Part shown: in pieces, positions 21,085 to 35,247 of the stretch
Layout of the letters: each line of letters starts with the position of its first letter
How positions within the stretch are numbered: the first letter of the stretch is position 1
DNA from: a virus
Virus record (IMG/VR): IMGVR_UViG_3300046474_000605
Coordinates: 1-40,667 of that record
DNA length: 40,667 bases
Strand: one strand, 5' to 3'
Made by a program: the position numbers and the translations under genes
The notes under the pieces: model-generated
Database searches by the model: none
Told to the model about the DNA's origin: nothing
The model's input: the letters and a program-made list of their open reading frames with translations, nothing else

Positions 21085-21356
21085 CTATTTGCTCTTGCTG
21101 CGAAGGATCTGGGCGTCGACCTGATCAGCGCAGGTATCGAGCAGGTTCACAGCGCGATCCTTCAATGCCCACAGGTCACCGTTCAGTGCCAGGTCATCAT
21201 CGCTTTCGCTGATGCGCTCGCAAGGGACCAGCTCAGGGGGTTCGAGCCTTACCGTTGTTGTTTTTACCGTGCTGGCTGGTTTGCCCCGCAGGCCGTCAGG
21301 CAAAGGCTGATCAGCCCACTTACGAACAGCCGGGCTCTTACGCTTGAGGTCTTCAA
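21085..21356 (-). pseudogene. Rz1-like outer-membrane spanin, split by frameshift
   Basis: In the +1 frame inside Rz, a TTG at 21356 with GAGG seven bases upstream opens a 30-codon frame. Its product begins MKTSSVRARLFVSGLISL and runs into a lipobox ending LTAC, a clear lipoprotein signal. The frame closes at 21264, but the Rz frame from there onward (TVKTTTVRLEPPELVPCERIS ... NGDLWALKDRAVNLLDTCADQ) looks like an Rz1 C-terminus, not an Rz one. Adding one base to the C4 run at 21284-21287 would join them into a ~90-residue o-spanin and would end Rz shortly after LPDGLRG. So this looks like an Rz1 gene broken by a one-base loss, a sequencing error, or recoding. Confidence 0.55.
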
Positions 21357-21627
21357 AGTCTTTCCTCGCCTGTTGTGCTTTCTGCTCGCTGGCCTTAAGA
21401 CGCTTATCCAGATCGAATTGGTAAGCCTTGTTGCGCTCTATCTCGGCGCGAAGCGTGGTGATGGTTGCCTGGCTCTCCACGTTGGCAGCCAGCGCATCGG
21501 CCTTCGCTTTTGTCTCGATGGCTACCTCACCGCGCAGCGCGATCACGCGGTATTGCTGGATGCCAACCAGAAGCGCGCCGATCAAGAAGATGATGATGGC
21601 AAGCGCGATTGCTTTAAGTGCGGTCAT
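21085..21627 (-). CDS. Rz: Rz-like inner-membrane spanin (apparently fused to Rz1 tail)
   Basis: A 180-residue protein starting MTALKAIALAIIIFLIGALLVG, a signal anchor, followed by a long periplasmic coiled coil (ALRGEVAIETKAKADALAANVESQ...KASEQKAQQARKDFEDLKRK). Spanins fuse the inner and outer membranes at the last step of lysis. The start overlaps the holin stop (ATGA). The last ~60 residues after LPDGLRG are unusual for Rz and look like Rz1 sequence read in the same frame (see the Rz1 entry), so the natural Rz may be shorter. Confidence 0.8.
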   Translation of the reverse strand: MTALKAIALAIIIFLIGALLVGIQQYRVIALRGEVAIETKAKADALAANVESQATITTLRAEIERNKAYQFDLDKRLKASEQKAQQARKDFEDLKRKSPAVRKWADQPLPDGLRGKPASTVKTTTVRLEPPELVPCERISESDDDLALNGDLWALKDRAVNLLDTCADQVDAQILRSKSK

Positions 21628-21950
21628 GCTGAGTCCGCCTTGCGTCCGAGGAATTTGATGATCAGCTCTCGAATCGCGGTAACACCGATAAATCCGATGG
21701 TGCCGCCGGCCGCTACCGACAAGCTGGAGGGCCAGGCCATCCACTCGATAACGCTACTTGCAGACAGGCTGAGGGCGCCGCAAATCAATGCTTCAAGCAC
21801 GACTCGCCATTTGTTGGCTTCCTTGCCTTCATACAGCACGCGAAGCAGAGATATGGTTGCGGCCATGATCGCTCCTTGCCAGAGCGGGTTCGAAAGGACT
21901 AGCCAGACCTGCGCCCAGAAGTCAGGTGATTTTTCAGGCATCGTCGACAT
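21624..21950 (-). CDS. Phage holin (lambda/HP1-type family)
   Basis: A 108-residue membrane protein. An N-terminal segment with DFWAQVWLVLSNPLWQGAIMAATISLLRVLYEG is followed by WRVVLEALICGALSLSAS and SSLSVAAGGTIGFIGVTAIRELI, so three membrane segments, with a basic C-terminus. This matches class I holins of Pseudomonas phages. I chose the ATG at 21950, about 10 bases after GGGTGG; a GTG upstream is against that element. It controls lysis timing and is directly coupled to Rz, with no endolysin between. Confidence 0.8.
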   Translation of the reverse strand: MSTMPEKSPDFWAQVWLVLSNPLWQGAIMAATISLLRVLYEGKEANKWRVVLEALICGALSLSASSVIEWMAWPSSLSVAAGGTIGFIGVTAIRELIIKFLGRKADSA

Positions 21951-22035
21951 CCGACAGTCCACCCTTTCGGGATCGGAAATGAATCAGCCCCGCAGCACTC
22001 CCAGCTCGGAGCGATGGGTGTGGCGGGGCTGAAAA

Positions 22036-22063
22036 CGAAAAAGCCCCGGCAAATGCCGAGGCT
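22036..22063 (-). terminator. Intrinsic terminator upstream of the holin
   Basis: On the minus strand AGCCTCGGCA pairs with TGCCGGGGCT (one mismatch) around a 2-nt loop, followed by TTTTTCGTTTTC. It may act like lambda tR', a block that a late antiterminator overcomes before the lysis genes. Confidence 0.65.
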
Positions 22064-22224
22064 CAGGAATGTGTGCGTGTCTTCCCACGCTGCCCGTCAA
22101 TGCCGCCCGGAGCATCAGAGGTATCCGGCGCAATGACTGCCGGTGTTCTTGCGTACCACGTGATTACCGGCAATACCGTGTCCAGGTAATCCCGAAGGCC
22201 ACCCTGGCTGTGAATCTTCGCAAA

Positions 22225-22252
22225 CAAAAAAGCCCGGCACGTTGGCCGGGCT
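22225..22252 (-). terminator. Intrinsic terminator of the Rel-like gene
   Basis: On the minus strand AGCCCGGC and GCCGGGCT form a perfect 8-bp stem with a 6-nt loop, followed by six T residues. It ends transcripts coming from the Rel-like gene 70 bases upstream. Confidence 0.85.
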
Positions 22253-22321
22253 TCTGGGTCAGTCCTCTACACACACAGGACTGGCAGGATGGAGATAATT
22301 TCGCTCAATCGCTCGACAAAG

Positions 22322-23362
22322 TCAAGGTGTGTCCTTTTCTTGATTGAGCTTATCCGTCCAAATCTTGATCAAGGCATCTTGTCCAAACTCCTGGCTAAGT
22401 GCTTGTCTGGCTAATCCGACATGTCGAAAATACACCCCAGGTCGACGTGTCTTAGCATTATCCGGAGGGGACCTTACGTAACCGCCCTCTTTTCGCATAA
22501 CTTCCTCATAGTGCTTATGAAGGATGTCCCGGAATTCCTTCAACCGAATTACACCCAACTTATCGATATCATCCAAAAGGTCAGAATAGTCTTCAAAGTC
22601 CGATTTGTTTTTTGCGGGAAAGACGCTACTCAACGTCGCGGCCAAATTATCAACATTGATAGTCTCGTCTTGCCCTTCAAGAGGTTGTGATTTATCCAAC
22701 ACTCCATCGTTGTAACTTTCTCTCTCATCCAAAACCCTTTGCAGCTCTAAATCAACAGTTTCTAGCAATGCTGAAACTCTATTAATTGATCTACGGATTG
22801 GCGGCGGAACGCCCTTTTCTTGCTTGTACTGTAGCTTATGTGATGCTGCCGCCCATATGTGTTGTGCCAGAGTTCTAACCTGTAACTCTATCGTAAATCC
22901 GCCTAGTCCTGCCCATGTAGGTACAGAGAGCCACGCCTCCGGGATATTCACTGAATAATGATGTGAATGGTATCCAAACTCAGAATCTCCCAGCCGTGCA
23001 CTCGTATCTTCCGAGGAAATCAAATTGAAATTATCAGAAATAATTTTTTTGACCCGATCCAGGTCCTTCCTAAACAATAGTACAACTCGCACGCCAATAA
23101 AGTCAGGCAAATCGTAGACGGTGGTCAAGGCAATACCTTTGCGCTCCATTTTCTCAGCTATGGAACTCCATGCTTTAACTCGACTCTCAACAGGAAATCC
23201 GAGTGCAACATCCTCTGCATCCAATAGTTCGTTAAGCTCTGTCACCACGAAGGATCTTAATCTATCGGCTCGTGGAAAATGCTCATGATAGTCAGCGTTT
23301 AGATCGTTAAGCACACTCACAGACACCCCGCGGGAAATATGTTTTAGGCTAGAATTTATCAA
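22322..23362 (-). CDS. RelA/SpoT-domain nucleotide synthetase (prophage cargo)
   Basis: A 346-residue protein with an intact-looking RelA/SpoT synthetase domain at residues ~50-185. RVKAWSSIAEKMERKG gives the R61/K63 substrate-binding pair, then DLPDFIGVRVV, GYHSHHYSV (Y131) for the G-loop, ELQVRT with E159, and WAAASHKLQYK. The C-terminal ~150 residues are charged and mostly helical, with no Cys zinc motif, ACT or TGS domain. Members of this superfamily make (p)ppGpp or (p)ppApp, or pyrophosphorylate tRNA (toxSAS); phage-borne ones can block superinfection. The TTG start overlaps the upstream stop (TTGA). The gene is visibly AT-richer than its neighbours, and its position between the late regulator and lysis genes marks it as a moron. 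Which substrate it uses cannot be told. Confidence 0.85.
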   Translation of the reverse strand: MINSSLKHISRGVSVSVLNDLNADYHEHFPRADRLRSFVVTELNELLDAEDVALGFPVESRVKAWSSIAEKMERKGIALTTVYDLPDFIGVRVVLLFRKDLDRVKKIISDNFNLISSEDTSARLGDSEFGYHSHHYSVNIPEAWLSVPTWAGLGGFTIELQVRTLAQHIWAAASHKLQYKQEKGVPPPIRRSINRVSALLETVDLELQRVLDERESYNDGVLDKSQPLEGQDETINVDNLAATLSSVFPAKNKSDFEDYSDLLDDIDKLGVIRLKEFRDILHKHYEEVMRKEGGYVRSPPDNAKTRRPGVYFRHVGLARQALSQEFGQDALIKIWTDKLNQEKDTP

Positions 23363-24042
23363 ACTTCAAGCTTAATCAAAACTCCTTCATGCACCAAAAT
23401 CATCTCGGTCGCTGCCAATGCGTCGTCTATCATGCAGTCCAGTTTCTCATTGATATCCCGTCTCCAACGACGACGGGTCGACTCCGGGGCGCCATTCAAG
23501 TCCCAAGTGTTCATGTCGTAGAAGGCATCTGGCAGCACAATCATGTCTGCCGAGCGTGAACTGGCTTTCTTTTGTGCAGCCAGACCAGCAGCAAGGGCTG
23601 CTTTCACAGCTGCGTCACGACGCCATTCCGGGGCATTCAGCGGCAGTTCAACGGTCACCGATGGCGTCTGTTTAAGGCGCGCACCAGGCAGCTTGGGAAT
23701 GGCCCAGGCAGTCACAGCTTTGAACAAGAACAGAGCAGGCGCGCTGGTGGCGACCACGGCCTTGAGTTGCGCGATTGCCTCGACCTTGCGCTGCTTGTGG
23801 GTTGAATATTTCGCGGCCAAGGCATTCCAGTGCCGCGGGATAAGCAGGTGATGAAGGCGAGCGGCGATCCAGTCGTCTACTAGGCCGCGATCAACGGATT
23901 CACCGCCGCCACGCACCAAACTTGCCAGGTCGCCCGGCTCATGGGGGTTGTACAGCTTTTGCCAAGCCTGGCCCGCCGTTCGGGAGTTTGCTTCGGCCGC
24001 CATGGCCGAGACGACTGCGCTCGAAACGCTGGAATAGATCAT
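23359..24042 (-). CDS. Possible late-gene regulator at the Q position
   Basis: A 227-residue protein between the replication/recombination genes and lysis genes, where lambda has Q. The segment PRHWNALAAKYSTHKQRKVEAIAQL resembles phage antitermination proteins. The basic C-terminal part (STRRRWRRDINEKLDCMIDDALAATEMILVHEGVL) looks like a DNA-binding helical end. I see no zinc motif in it. ATG start, two bases after the zinc protein's stop region. The Q role rests mainly on position, and an unknown function is possible. Confidence 0.45.
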   Translation of the reverse strand: MIYSSVSSAVVSAMAAEANSRTAGQAWQKLYNPHEPGDLASLVRGGGESVDRGLVDDWIAARLHHLLIPRHWNALAAKYSTHKQRKVEAIAQLKAVVATSAPALFLFKAVTAWAIPKLPGARLKQTPSVTVELPLNAPEWRRDAAVKAALAAGLAAQKKASSRSADMIVLPDAFYDMNTWDLNGAPESTRRRWRRDINEKLDCMIDDALAATEMILVHEGVLIKLEV

Positions 24043-24044
24043 GG

Positions 24045-24359
24045 TCAGTCCCCTGTGAAATTCGATCTACCGGCGCCCCGGCAGTTGTTCTGTTCGTACT
24101 GCTCGTGAGCGCCGCCAATCTGATGGCGGGCCCGGCTCAGCTCTGCGGCCATGTTGCGCAGCTTCAGGTTCAGTTGCGGCACCAGTTCCTCAAGCGGCAA
24201 CGCATCGCCGGTCGCCTGGCAGACCCAGCCGGATCCGTGGCAGTTGGTGCAGTCGAGCTGGTGGAAAACACCCCTGATGACGCCGGTGCCACGGCAGGCA
24301 CCGCACTCCATCAGCGGCTTCAGTTCCTTCCGGAAGGCAGGGCCGTGGCTCTTTTTCAT
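24045..24359 (-). CDS. Small zinc-finger protein with DnaJ-like CxxCxGxG motifs
   Basis: A 104-residue protein with two DnaJ-type motifs, CGACRGTG near residue 18 and CTNCHGSGWV near 37, forming one zinc site. A helical end follows (LNLKLRNMAAELSRARHQIGG). I chose the inner ATG at 24359, which has GAGG upstream; the longer frame crosses the end of the recombinase gene. In Pseudomonas prophages such proteins sit next to the late regulator and may work with it. Function is not known. Confidence 0.6.
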   Translation of the reverse strand: MKKSHGPAFRKELKPLMECGACRGTGVIRGVFHQLDCTNCHGSGWVCQATGDALPLEELVPQLNLKLRNMAAELSRARHQIGGAHEQYEQNNCRGAGRSNFTGD

Positions 24360-24378
24360 GCTTTTGAAACCTCGCCTT

Positions 24379-25659
24379 TTACGGATTCTGAATAACGCTG
24401 GAGCCAGCGTGATTGCTGGCCTGTGCAGGGATATGCGAATTTCCGCTTCTGTCGTCTTTCCACCCATGAATCAGGGCAAAGCCGCATTCGTCCAATCGCT
24501 GATGCCACTTCTCCAACGCTTCACGCTTGAGCTGTTCGGCATGGGTGTGGATGTAGGTCTGCACGTTGCGAGTGAGCGTGTGGTTCACCAGCATCTCGCC
24601 GATGAGGTAGTCGACGCCCAGGTCAGTCCAAGCCGTGCGCGCCAGCTTGCGCAGGTCGTGGCTCGTCCACTCGCCCTGCCCCAGTCTGGTAAACACGGCG
24701 CAGGCTTGGCCCTCGGTCATCGGGCGACCACCCTTGCTCGGGAACAGGTAGGTGCCCTGATAGCCTCTCGATGTCTGCCACTCGCGGTAGCGCTTCAACA
24801 GGCCCACCACCTGTCCGGTCAGCGGCAGACTATGCTCGCACCGGGTCTTCGTGTTCTCGGCGGGCAGAAACCACTCACCACCATCGACGATCGTGATGTG
24901 CGACCAGCGGGCCTGCCTGGTCTCGCCCACACGCGTGCCATGGCAGAGCATCATCAGCGCCAGCATGTTGTCGGCCGGTTCATGATCGAAGCCGCCGGCG
25001 AACGATTCGACCAGCGCCTCGATTTGCACGCCGCGCAGCCTGGATGTCTTCGGCTTTATTTTCGCCTTGGTGAAGTCGGTGAACCTGAATCCAGCAATGG
25101 GGTTGCTGGCGATCAGCTTGAGCTTCTCCGCCTGCTTGAACGCCACCACCAGCACGCCCCACATGAGACGCACGTAGGACAGAGACAGCTCCTCCTGCAT
25201 GGGCCACATTGCCTCTCGGTCGATGGTTGCGCGCGAAACGTCGGCGATCTGCATATCAGCGAGCCGAGGCTTGAGGTGGCAGTGGATCGCAGACTTGGCC
25301 GACGTCCGGCGCTTATCCGAAAGGCTACGGTCGCGGGATTGCCGTTCTGAGTACCAGTCGAGCAGCTCACCGACCGTTTGCAGGGTGCCGGCGGCAGCGG
25401 AGGCAGCAGGATCGGCGGCCAGTCGCGCATGGATCTGAGGCATGACGCCCGCCAGCGCCTTGAAGCTCAAGGCCGGGTATCCGCCGACCTTGTTCCATTT
25501 CTTCTTGGTCACCAGATACCAGGTGGCGCGCTCGCGGTTTAGACTGAAGCGCAGGTACAGCCCTGGGTGGCGAGGGTCGCGAAGGGATTCGAACTCGCCG
25601 GTCGCGGCTTGCCGGCGGATCTCGGCGTCAGAGAATGAAACGATGCCTGTCTTGCTCAT
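24379..25659 (-). CDS. Second tyrosine recombinase (in the early leftward region)
   Basis: A 426-residue phage-integrase family protein. The catalytic residues are visible: Arg in MLCHGTRVGETRQARW, HxxR in SHDLRKLART, the second His in EMLVNHT, and Tyr in VQTYIHTHAEQ. The N-terminal DUF4102-like arm is LYLRFSLNRERATWYLV, with a core-binding domain in between. Start ATG at 25659, overlapping the VRR-NUC stop (ATGA). It lies amid nin-like genes, far from the att-proximal integrase at the window end, so it is probably not the main prophage integrase. Genome dimer resolution or a DNA-inversion or recombination role are alternatives. Confidence 0.85.
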   Translation of the reverse strand: MSKTGIVSFSDAEIRRQAATGEFESLRDPRHPGLYLRFSLNRERATWYLVTKKKWNKVGGYPALSFKALAGVMPQIHARLAADPAASAAAGTLQTVGELLDWYSERQSRDRSLSDKRRTSAKSAIHCHLKPRLADMQIADVSRATIDREAMWPMQEELSLSYVRLMWGVLVVAFKQAEKLKLIASNPIAGFRFTDFTKAKIKPKTSRLRGVQIEALVESFAGGFDHEPADNMLALMMLCHGTRVGETRQARWSHITIVDGGEWFLPAENTKTRCEHSLPLTGQVVGLLKRYREWQTSRGYQGTYLFPSKGGRPMTEGQACAVFTRLGQGEWTSHDLRKLARTAWTDLGVDYLIGEMLVNHTLTRNVQTYIHTHAEQLKREALEKWHQRLDECGFALIHGWKDDRSGNSHIPAQASNHAGSSVIQNP

Positions 25660-26087
25660 GCGGCCACCACGGTTTTCGGAAGTAGGAGGTATGCCCGGAT
25701 GTGCTCCATGGCGTCGAAGTGGCCACGGCACACGATGGCGAGATAGCCCTGCTCATTCAGGCGACGAATGCAGGCGTGCTGGCTGGGGGATACCGGGGCA
25801 TCGTTGGGCGGTGTGGCCTTGAATTCCAGGTACAGGCCGAAATACCCGCCACGGGCCATGGTCAGCACCAGATCAGGGATACCCGCCTTCACGCCTTGGG
25901 CCTTGAGCTTCGCAGCGACAGCCTTGTGCCGCTGGCCGCCGTTCGGCACATGATGGATGTGCTCCCACGCTTCGGGATGACGCACCTTGAGCTCAGCGAG
26001 CAAAGCGGTCTGCTCCAGACCCTCACGGTCAATGCGTGGGGCGCGTGCGGGCCTTGGCTTGTAGGCCTTCAGCTTCAGGCCAGTCAC
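25656..26087 (-). CDS. VRR-NUC domain nuclease
   Basis: A 143-residue protein with the VRR-NUC (PD-(D/E)xK-like) layout. It runs HVPNGGQRHKAVAAKLKAQGVKAGIPDLVL, then LYLEFKATP as the ExK core, then SPSQHACIRRLNEQGYLAIVCRG. Phage forms process recombination or replication intermediates. The GTG start overlaps the DUF1364 stop (GTGA). Confidence 0.88.
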   Translation of the reverse strand: MTGLKLKAYKPRPARAPRIDREGLEQTALLAELKVRHPEAWEHIHHVPNGGQRHKAVAAKLKAQGVKAGIPDLVLTMARGGYFGLYLEFKATPPNDAPVSPSQHACIRRLNEQGYLAIVCRGHFDAMEHIRAYLLLPKTVVAA

Positions 26088-34396: not shown

Positions 34397-34837
34397 TTAG
34401 CTAGTCTTTTGAGTCTTAGTCATTGATCTATTACGTTTCGCATTAGCTACAGGAAGCTCTGCATCTACAACCTCATGTTTTTTCAACCGCTGAGCTTTGT
34501 TTTTCAATGTACTCATTTTTGCGTTATTTCTAGTCTCTAGCGCTAGTGCTTTATGCTCTTCCCCGACCGTATCATCTTTTAAGATACTCTCGCACTCCTG
34601 AACAATAAATTCAACGTCGGATTTTTCTGATTTATTAGCCCACCACTCTCTTATTATAGTCTCGATGAAATTAGTGATGGTATACGTCACCAAAGTTAAT
34701 GGCGGGATCAGATACATTACTCCGTGCCAGAACTTGTCGTCCGGATACTCGCCAACGATGTAGGTAAAAAGTGAACCTACAGCCCCTGCAAAACAAGTTG
34801 AAAAACTTAACTTCGCATAAGATTCGTCCTTACTCAT
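34397..34837 (-). CDS. AT-rich cassette gene 2: membrane protein with charged tail
   Basis: A 146-residue protein starting MSKDESYAKLSFSTCFAG. It has two membrane segments (AGAVGSLFTYIVGEYP and WHGVMYLIPPLTLVTYTITNFIETII), then a cytoplasmic helical tail rich in Lys and Glu (ETRNNAKMSTLKNKAQRLKKHEVVD). It lies seven bases after the stop of its partner. Base composition is clearly AT-richer than the flanks. No family recognised. Confidence 0.65.
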   Translation of the reverse strand: MSKDESYAKLSFSTCFAGAVGSLFTYIVGEYPDDKFWHGVMYLIPPLTLVTYTITNFIETIIREWWANKSEKSDVEFIVQECESILKDDTVGEEHKALALETRNNAKMSTLKNKAQRLKKHEVVDAELPVANAKRNRSMTKTQKTS

Positions 34838-34842
34838 GCGAA

Positions 34843-35247
34843 TCACACTCCATCTGGATACTTATCGGCCACGTCTTCGTATGCAATATGAAGACTGGAC
34901 AGACAATACTTTAGAAACTTCTTAAAGTCAGAAGAGTTTCGCACAAACGCTTCTGCAGACACAATGAAGCCACTGCCTACATAAAAACATTTTACAATTT
35001 TATACGTTCGCGCAATGTGATTGCACACCTCATAACGCTTCGAAGCCTCAGGATTTCCGTCCAATTCATACGGAACCGAAATTTCGACAAACCCGTCGTC
35101 ATCTTTATCTACACTGAGAAGGTAATTCAAACCGCCATCATCAAACCAAATATGATTACTATCACCCGGAAACTCCTCATCAATTTCACATCCTGCCTCT
35201 CGAAGATATTCCTTATACATATCAAGATTGATTTTTCTTACTGACAT
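34843..35247 (-). CDS. AT-rich cassette gene 1: small acidic soluble protein
   Basis: A 134-residue acidic protein, with IDEEFPGDSNHIWFDDGGLNYLLSVDKDDDGFVEISVPYEL followed by SKRYEVCNHIARTYKIVKCFYVGSGFIVSAEAFV. The alternating strand-helix pattern recalls YbjN or type III chaperone-like folds. This is only a resemblance. It is the first gene of a two-gene unit read against the surrounding early operon, and it shares the same AT-rich composition as its membrane partner. Confidence 0.65.
   Translation of the reverse strand: MSVRKINLDMYKEYLREAGCEIDEEFPGDSNHIWFDDGGLNYLLSVDKDDDGFVEISVPYELDGNPEASKRYEVCNHIARTYKIVKCFYVGSGFIVSAEAFVRNSSDFKKFLKYCLSSLHIAYEDVADKYPDGV

Follow-up and report, generated by a model that had tools for sequence, protein, structure and literature searches.

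A mobile small alarmone synthetase with a predicted helical C-terminal domain in a lambdoid Pseudomonas prophage

Why would a lambdoid phage carry a RelA/SpoT-type synthetase between its late regulator and its holin? The question is raised by a gene in a 40,667-base virus record of IMG/VR, called the window below, along whose whole length all coordinates are counted. The window has a lambdoid gene order, and the closest phages are Pseudomonas phages. The original prediction placed the synthetase where an endolysin or a late promoter would be expected, likened it to proteins of the toxSAS group, suggested a role in excluding other phages, and considered the 227-residue upstream gene as a possible partner. 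The sequence comparisons described here indicate that the gene encodes a real, intact, and mobile alarmone synthetase with a family-specific, predicted helical tail, which belongs neither to CapRel nor to a two-gene toxin-antitoxin module.

The synthetase gene and its catalytic residues

The plus-strand frame over positions 22322-23362 is full of stop codons, and the coding strand is the minus strand, read from 23362 to 22322 (Table 1). In a Pfam search of the 346-residue protein, PF04607 (RelA_SpoT) was the only family above its cut-off (73.9 bits, 1.6e-20; cut-off 27), and no HD hydrolase, TGS, or ACT domain was found. The protein thus fits the definition of a small alarmone synthetase (SAS), which has a SYNTH domain without HD hydrolase, TGS, and ACT domains. 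It contains the sole RSH synthetase domain within the record. Full-length relatives reach 68% identity in the nearest of them, L161/L172. The gene has a GC content of 0.445, compared to 0.58 in its surroundings; across the family, GC is below that of the flanks in 39 of 44 loci, the mean difference being -10.5 points. The reality of the reading frame, its AT-rich composition, and its location between the 227-residue gene and the holin therefore agree with the original prediction.

Table 1. Features of the window around the synthetase gene.
Feature	Position	Strand	Remarks
Lambda-type holin	21624..21962	-	PF05106 3e-31; TIGR01594
Intrinsic terminator 2, before holin	22041..22064	-	
Intrinsic terminator 1, tR'-like, after synthetase	22228..22255	-	
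Conserved putative late promoter, leader, and terminator	22228..22325	-	Intact in window, ~1 kb from P0002
GAGCG-n3-GAGCG direct repeat after -35	22302..22314	-	Candidate P0002-protein binding element
-35 hexamer TTGACT	22320..22325	-	Synthetase stop TGA (22324-22322) inside hexamer
Small alarmone synthetase gene, longest ORF	22322..23362	-	346 aa, TTG start
Family-specific helical C-terminal domain	22322..22717	-	Residues 216-346 (helices predicted)
SYNTH catalytic domain	22814..23191	-	Residues 58-183 (Pfam match 60-183)
Q-position gene P0002, phrog_3412	23359..24042	-	227 aa; position suggests a late antiterminator
Small CxxC zinc-finger-like protein, phrog_5085	24045..24467	-	Upstream of P0002; phage operon member

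The synthetase domain is intact, and all the motifs on which its identification had been based are present: R61/K63, GYHSHHY (130-136), ELQVRT (159-164), and WAAASHK (170-176), together with D87. In an alignment of 47 family sequences, which are 33-57% identical to the query, residues R61, K63, S67, D87, Y131, S133, H135, E159, Q161, R163, T164, W170, and H175 are invariant, K71 and R74 are kept in at least 90% of the sequences, and the stretch QHIWA...H.LQYK is mostly invariant. The protein thus has the ATP-binding residues R, K, S, K, and R, the metal-binding D, the acceptor Y, and the catalytic E. These residues argue for an active pyrophosphotransferase. The closeness of the catalytic domain to RelQ and RelP favours (p)ppGpp as the predicted product.

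The longest reading frame starts with TTG and would overlap the upstream gene by four nucleotides (TTGA), which had been read as coupling of the two genes. This start and overlap are doubtful, because in the loci L002-L004 a short gap without overlap separates the upstream stop from the synthetase, the starts of family members align with residues 15-17 of the 346-residue frame, residues 1-5 are a low-confidence part of the predicted model, and the GTG codons at 23320 and 23314 come after GGGGTG. One of these two codons is the probable true start, giving a protein of 332 or 330 residues.

A second AT-rich island, with a GC content of 0.41-0.45, is located at positions 34397-35247 of the window. 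It contains two minus-strand reading frames (149 and 134 aa) with a 4-nt overlap, for which no convincing match was found in PHROGs, NCBIfam, or PADLOC, and it is another cargo candidate.

Fold of the catalytic and C-terminal domains

The AlphaFold2 model of the full-length protein, calculated on the family alignment, has a pLDDT of 90.3. The best structural match of the catalytic fold is RelQ (5dec_B; Z 18.3, rmsd 3.1 Å, 186 residues aligned), closely followed by RelP (6ewz_A; Z 18.2, rmsd 3.0, 192 aligned), whereas the values are Z 12.9 for CapRel (9erv_A; 3.9 Å, 185 aligned), 10.7 for Tas1, and 7.5 for FaRel2. The matches of the full model in the BFVD were of the catalytic-domain kind. By sequence, too, RelQ and RelP are the solved proteins nearest to the catalytic domain (64 bits), and blastp gave 72 bits to a RelQ as opposed to 32 bits to CapRel. 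The score against the RelQ family NF053588 of NCBIfam was 68.6 bits, below the cut-off of 320. The CapRel profile PDC-S33 matched with 48 bits over profile positions 63-177 of 349, which correspond to the SYNTH half only, while CapRel-SJ46, used as a control, scored 290 bits over positions 4-342. Membership of the CapRel family was rejected because of this partial coverage and because the tail lacks YXXY and is all helical in the model. Membership of a described toxSAS group was not supported, with both sequence and fold nearer to RelQ and RelP. The family could, however, coincide with one of the 30 SAS subfamilies that the tree of Jimmy et al. (2020) reportedly contains.

The C-terminal domain is conserved in the family. 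Residues Y217, P249, G316, and R319 are invariant in the 47 sequences, and the motif GVYFxHVGLxRxAL is conserved. The tail nevertheless varies more than the catalytic part, with an entropy per alignment block of ~1.9-2.8 bits as opposed to 0.3-2.2 bits. When modelled alone, the tail forms six helices with a pLDDT of 89.6. A Foldseek search with the tail alone gave a best E value of 3.1 and nothing below 3, and a VIA search gave Z scores of at most 5.3 (a piece of an AAA+ protein, 6.9 Å), which is in the noise range for helical models; this lack of a fold match does not prove that the fold is new. The Y-x-x-Y motif is absent from residues 216-346, and TPR repeats were found neither by Pfam nor as a TPR chain among the weak fold matches of the tail-only search. 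The tail is thus, as had been anticipated, a predicted helical and non-RelA domain, and it could serve as a sensor or a built-in brake. Further Pseudomonas synthetases (L164-L171) of 343-364 residues match the family over the catalytic part and the first part of the tail only. They seem to end in C-termini of another kind, as would be expected if sensor domains had been exchanged.

Insertion site, predicted expression, and distribution

The gene P0002 takes the place that Q has in phage lambda, downstream of the nin genes and just ahead of a putative promoter with terminator, the holin being next in order. A search for its relatives gave 62 phage records, nearly all of Pseudomonas phages and with D3 orf84 among them, and 436 stretches of IMG/VR. 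P0002 comes after NinG in PseuP_222 and phiAH14a, and in D3 with one gene between them. The P0002 protein has no significant match in Pfam, NCBIfam, or the PDB and no detectable homology to solved or named Q proteins; the label "Q-like" rests on position. The integrase gene of the window (24379-25731) lies within the early operon, before the zinc-finger gene and P0002, and the same arrangement is found in L002 and L004.

Comparison of the P0002 relatives revealed a strongly conserved element with the layout TTGACA, then GAGCG..TGAGCGAAATT, CCCATCCTG, and lastly a hairpin rich in GC that carries a run of T. The element starts exactly 13 nt past the P0002 stop in 60 of 84 loci, and 9-15 nt past it in 72 of them. 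In lambda, TTGACT, the -35 hexamer of PR', is located 43 nt past the Q stop. It is possible that the GAGCG repeat is the binding element of the P0002 protein. In the window, the synthetase occupies the gap between P0002 and the element, so precisely that its TGA stop falls within the -35 TTGACT, and its sequence context shows it to be inserted there; it does not take the place of the late promoter, since the conserved promoter, repeat, and terminator are positioned directly 3' of the gene. The same layout is found in L002, L003, and L004, which encode proteins 58-59% identical to the synthetase and in which the longest reading frame begins 1-29 nt past the P0002 stop. Synthetase carriers aside, a gene-sized insert is present at this point in only four of ~82 distinct loci. 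Inserts other than the synthetase are a 133-aa reading frame in L029 and L030, one comparable to it in length in L042, and in L086 an HNH gene. The conserved unit of P0002, promoter, and terminator offers a simple yardstick by which cargo can be recognised in Pseudomonas prophages, of which there are hundreds.

The whole interval from P0002 to the holin is a hotspot of very diverse, mostly unannotated cargo in ~80 Pseudomonas-type phages (L011-L090). Nine of ten cargo proteins tested from other phages had no Pfam match, and phage D3 (L159) has a tRNA cluster there. In the window, the holin is directly followed by an Rz-like spanin (21085-21962). The endolysin must be encoded elsewhere or be missing from the record, because no gene for it lies between the two.

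The best sigma-70 score of a promoter of the synthetase's own was 7 of 12 in the window, the family mean was not above that of shuffled sequences, and there is little room for a promoter ahead of the gene in this phage. Because the gene lies between P0002 and the late promoter, with two terminators before the holin, it is most simply read as transcribed with P0002 in the delayed-early transcript, upstream of the late promoter. Activity during the lytic programme is more probable than expression in the quiet lysogen, against which the lack of a visible promoter of its own, and of space for one, argues. However, in L172 the synthetase relative is positioned beyond the late promoter element and tandem terminators. 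Delayed-early timing is therefore not a trait of the family, and the timing of expression is weaker as evidence for a lytic role.

Successive scans identified 9 and then 28 viral loci of the family, and 26 loci in genomes. The hosts include Pseudomonas, Duganella, Massilia, Polaromonas, Halomonas, Psychrobacter, Alphaproteobacteria, and Verrucomicrobia, among others. Four of 299 Pseudomonas genomes contain the full-length family (427-429 bits), and nine more contain a synthetase of similar length that is matched over its N-terminal two thirds with at most 217 bits. In each of five host genomes checked, the family member coexists with one or two long RSH genes and is therefore accessory, and the comparisons did not place it firmly among non-toxic housekeeping synthetases.

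No gene is common to the neighbourhoods of the 35 family loci. The slots used include the gap between P0002 and the late promoter (window, L002-L004) and a different regulator-to-holin slot (L172). An integrase adjoins the synthetase relative in L007, L094, L123, and L124, L094 being included because of a C-terminus near-identical to that of L007. In the P2-like prophages L130-L137, the relative is located beside the portal gene and convergent to it, and the order in L134 is gpA, synthetase, portal gpQ, and terminase gpP. This cos-proximal A-to-Q region of P2 is a hotspot that carries old, tin, and other anti-phage genes, and the systems from it that were tested block phages (PMC9122126). Defence genes found beside relatives are of the GmrSD type (L130/L131; PDC-M55C in L130), an AbiLi-type ATPase (L122), a PDC-S21 gene (L129), and an RT-TIR gene (L116). 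In a crude test of enrichment, strong PADLOC matches were not clearly commoner among 127 near proteins than among 123 farther ones. The gene has a foreign composition, is absent from sister phages, and is flanked by intact genes on either side, as is characteristic of morons; these sequence traits show it to be horizontally acquired single-gene cargo in a Pseudomonas lambdoid prophage.

Some distant loci are of separate interest. The Vibrio filamentous phage PQ189320 encodes a relative with 33% identity (L093:6571-7581), and thus spends more than 1 kb of its 8.1 kb genome, a very large share, on this gene. In several Alphaproteobacteria (L114, L116, L118, L119), members of a divergent branch follow a long conserved gene (854-1106 aa) at a short distance, and in L119 the location is next to greA; this branch may be a settled chromosomal form. 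In the Pantoea sp. S18 plasmid NZ_CP142690 (L157:3846-6882), a gene for a NACHT protein lies 1 nt upstream of one for a RelA/SpoT-domain protein, and the pair is flanked by recombinase genes. It is possibly an NLR-type defence operon with an alarmone-synthetase-like effector.

Possible roles and relation to known systems

The preferred reading is that of a mobile, tail-gated, single-gene alarmone synthetase for inter-phage competition, to which we assign a probability of roughly 0.48. In this mechanism, the C-terminal domain would restrain the catalytic domain until a cue from infection releases it. The released enzyme would move pyrophosphate from ATP to a 3'-OH acceptor, with (p)ppGpp as the likeliest product, and the product would arrest host growth and translation, to the detriment of the competing phage. 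The synthetase would thus act like a self-regulated exclusion protein of the CapRel type while standing outside the CapRel family. Gating by the tail is made plausible by the precedents of CapRel and Tde-SAS. Exclusion of competing phages, which the original prediction had raised, is the best-supported role because of the sites that the family occupies, including the P2 old/tin hotspot, and stands at about even odds. The nearness of the catalytic domain to RelQ and RelP, which are non-toxic housekeeping enzymes, speaks against it. So does the lack of a visible promoter of its own in this phage, because the quiet lysogen is where exclusion genes usually act, and so does the crude test, in which defence families were not clearly enriched around the gene.

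The main rival reading, which is rather unlikely, is that the enzyme instead serves its own phage, with delayed-early (p)ppGpp shifting host transcription off ribosome synthesis and thereby raising the yield or biasing the decision between lysis and lysogeny, with no part in exclusion. The position within the lytic operon, between P0002 and the late promoter, and the RelQ/RelP-like catalytic domain would suit such a role. It also has a precedent in Orf73 of lambda, an early TraR/DksA homologue that inhibits rRNA promoters, slows host growth, and increases yield 3-4 fold (PMC9239242), and host (p)ppGpp acts on phages of Pseudomonas putida in either direction (PMC12814882). However, the family behaves as cargo, moving between unrelated phage types and chromosomes while being rare in each; several relatives are located in the P2 exclusion hotspot, outside lytic operons; and the nearest relative, L172, does not share the delayed-early position.

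CapRel, FaRel2, and PhRel2 pyrophosphorylate the 3'-CCA end of tRNA, and FaRel makes (p)ppApp. A true toxSAS mechanism of either kind is improbable for this synthetase, despite its CapRel-like size and fused layout, the invariance of Y131, which stacks the acceptor, and of R61, K63, and S67, which bind ATP, and its carriage by the same kind of host element. The PDC-S33 match to the SYNTH half only (48 bits, as opposed to 290 for CapRel), the blastp scores, and the fold scores (Z 12.9 for CapRel and 7.5 for FaRel2, against 18 for RelQ and RelP) all point away from it, although none of these scores directly reads the acceptor substrate.

A passenger gene with no natural effect on phage or host would be rare, foreign by composition, and without a visible promoter of its own, as this gene is, but such a passenger is very improbable here: the catalytic residues and C-terminal motifs are invariant down to ~33-35% identity and across phyla, indicating purifying selection on the protein. 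A toxin-antitoxin pair formed with P0002 as the antitoxin, suggested by the adjacency of the genes on one strand and by their apparent 4-nt overlap if the TTG start is used, is barely credible and is refuted by distribution, as hundreds of phages have P0002 without the synthetase (among the best 80 P0002 relatives only two, the phages of L002 and L004, carry it), the synthetase lacks P0002 in 32 of 35 family loci, and P0002 is located where Q would be, immediately ahead of the late promoter.

Tail-gated exclusion by a single gene, if correct, would have a wider meaning. The synthetase could represent a new family of alarmone synthetases that gate themselves, with a helical domain, unrelated to the pseudo-zinc-finger of CapRel, in its place as brake and phage sensor, a tentative proposal that we regard as somewhat doubtful. 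The same kind of enzyme would then have an independent second domain architecture, one that travels by itself among prophages of the lambdoid, P2-like, and other types and is present in a proven anti-phage hotspot, and gating would have evolved more than once. The synthetases L164-L171, matched at the N-terminus only, would fit a general plan of one synthetase core with exchangeable C-terminal sensors.

CapRel is the best-studied alarmone-synthetase-like enzyme with its own phage sensor. Like the synthetase described here, CapRel (PDC-S33; 7ztb, 9erv) is encoded by a single prophage gene of ~350 aa, combines SYNTH with an extra C-terminal domain, and has no separate antitoxin. In CapRel, the YXXY motif blocks the adenine site, and the pseudo-zinc-finger is released by a phage capsid protein (PMC9712102). 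In contrast, the tail of the present synthetase is all helical in the model, without YXXY or the beta-strands of the pseudo-zinc-finger, and the similarity in profile and blast comparisons is restricted to the SYNTH half. RelQ/YjbM and RelP/YwaC (5dec, 6ewz) share the type of catalytic domain and are closest to it by sequence and fold, but they are ~210-240 aa long and lack the 130-residue tail. The DsRel-type SAS-TPR of Treponema denticola (Tde-SAS) likewise joins SYNTH to a helical C-terminal domain. Its TPR tail has been proven to restrain ppGpp synthesis, and removal of the tail increases the catalytic efficiency ~12-fold for pppGpp and ~26-fold for pGpp synthesis (PMC10434055). However, Tde-SAS is its host's sole RSH synthetase, whereas the present protein is phage cargo without a TPR match. 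PhRel of the mycobacteriophage Phrann is also borne by a temperate phage and blocks superinfection (PMC7591505). It is set apart, as are the other bicistronic toxSAS FaRel, FaRel2, and PhRel2, by gene layout, since the present family has no conserved adjacent antitoxin gene. Relatives of the synthetase are found in the P2 old/tin hotspot, and the gene itself is held in the lambdoid Q-to-holin cargo slot, whose occupant differs from phage to phage and within which this copy, preceding the late promoter, has an uncommon position.
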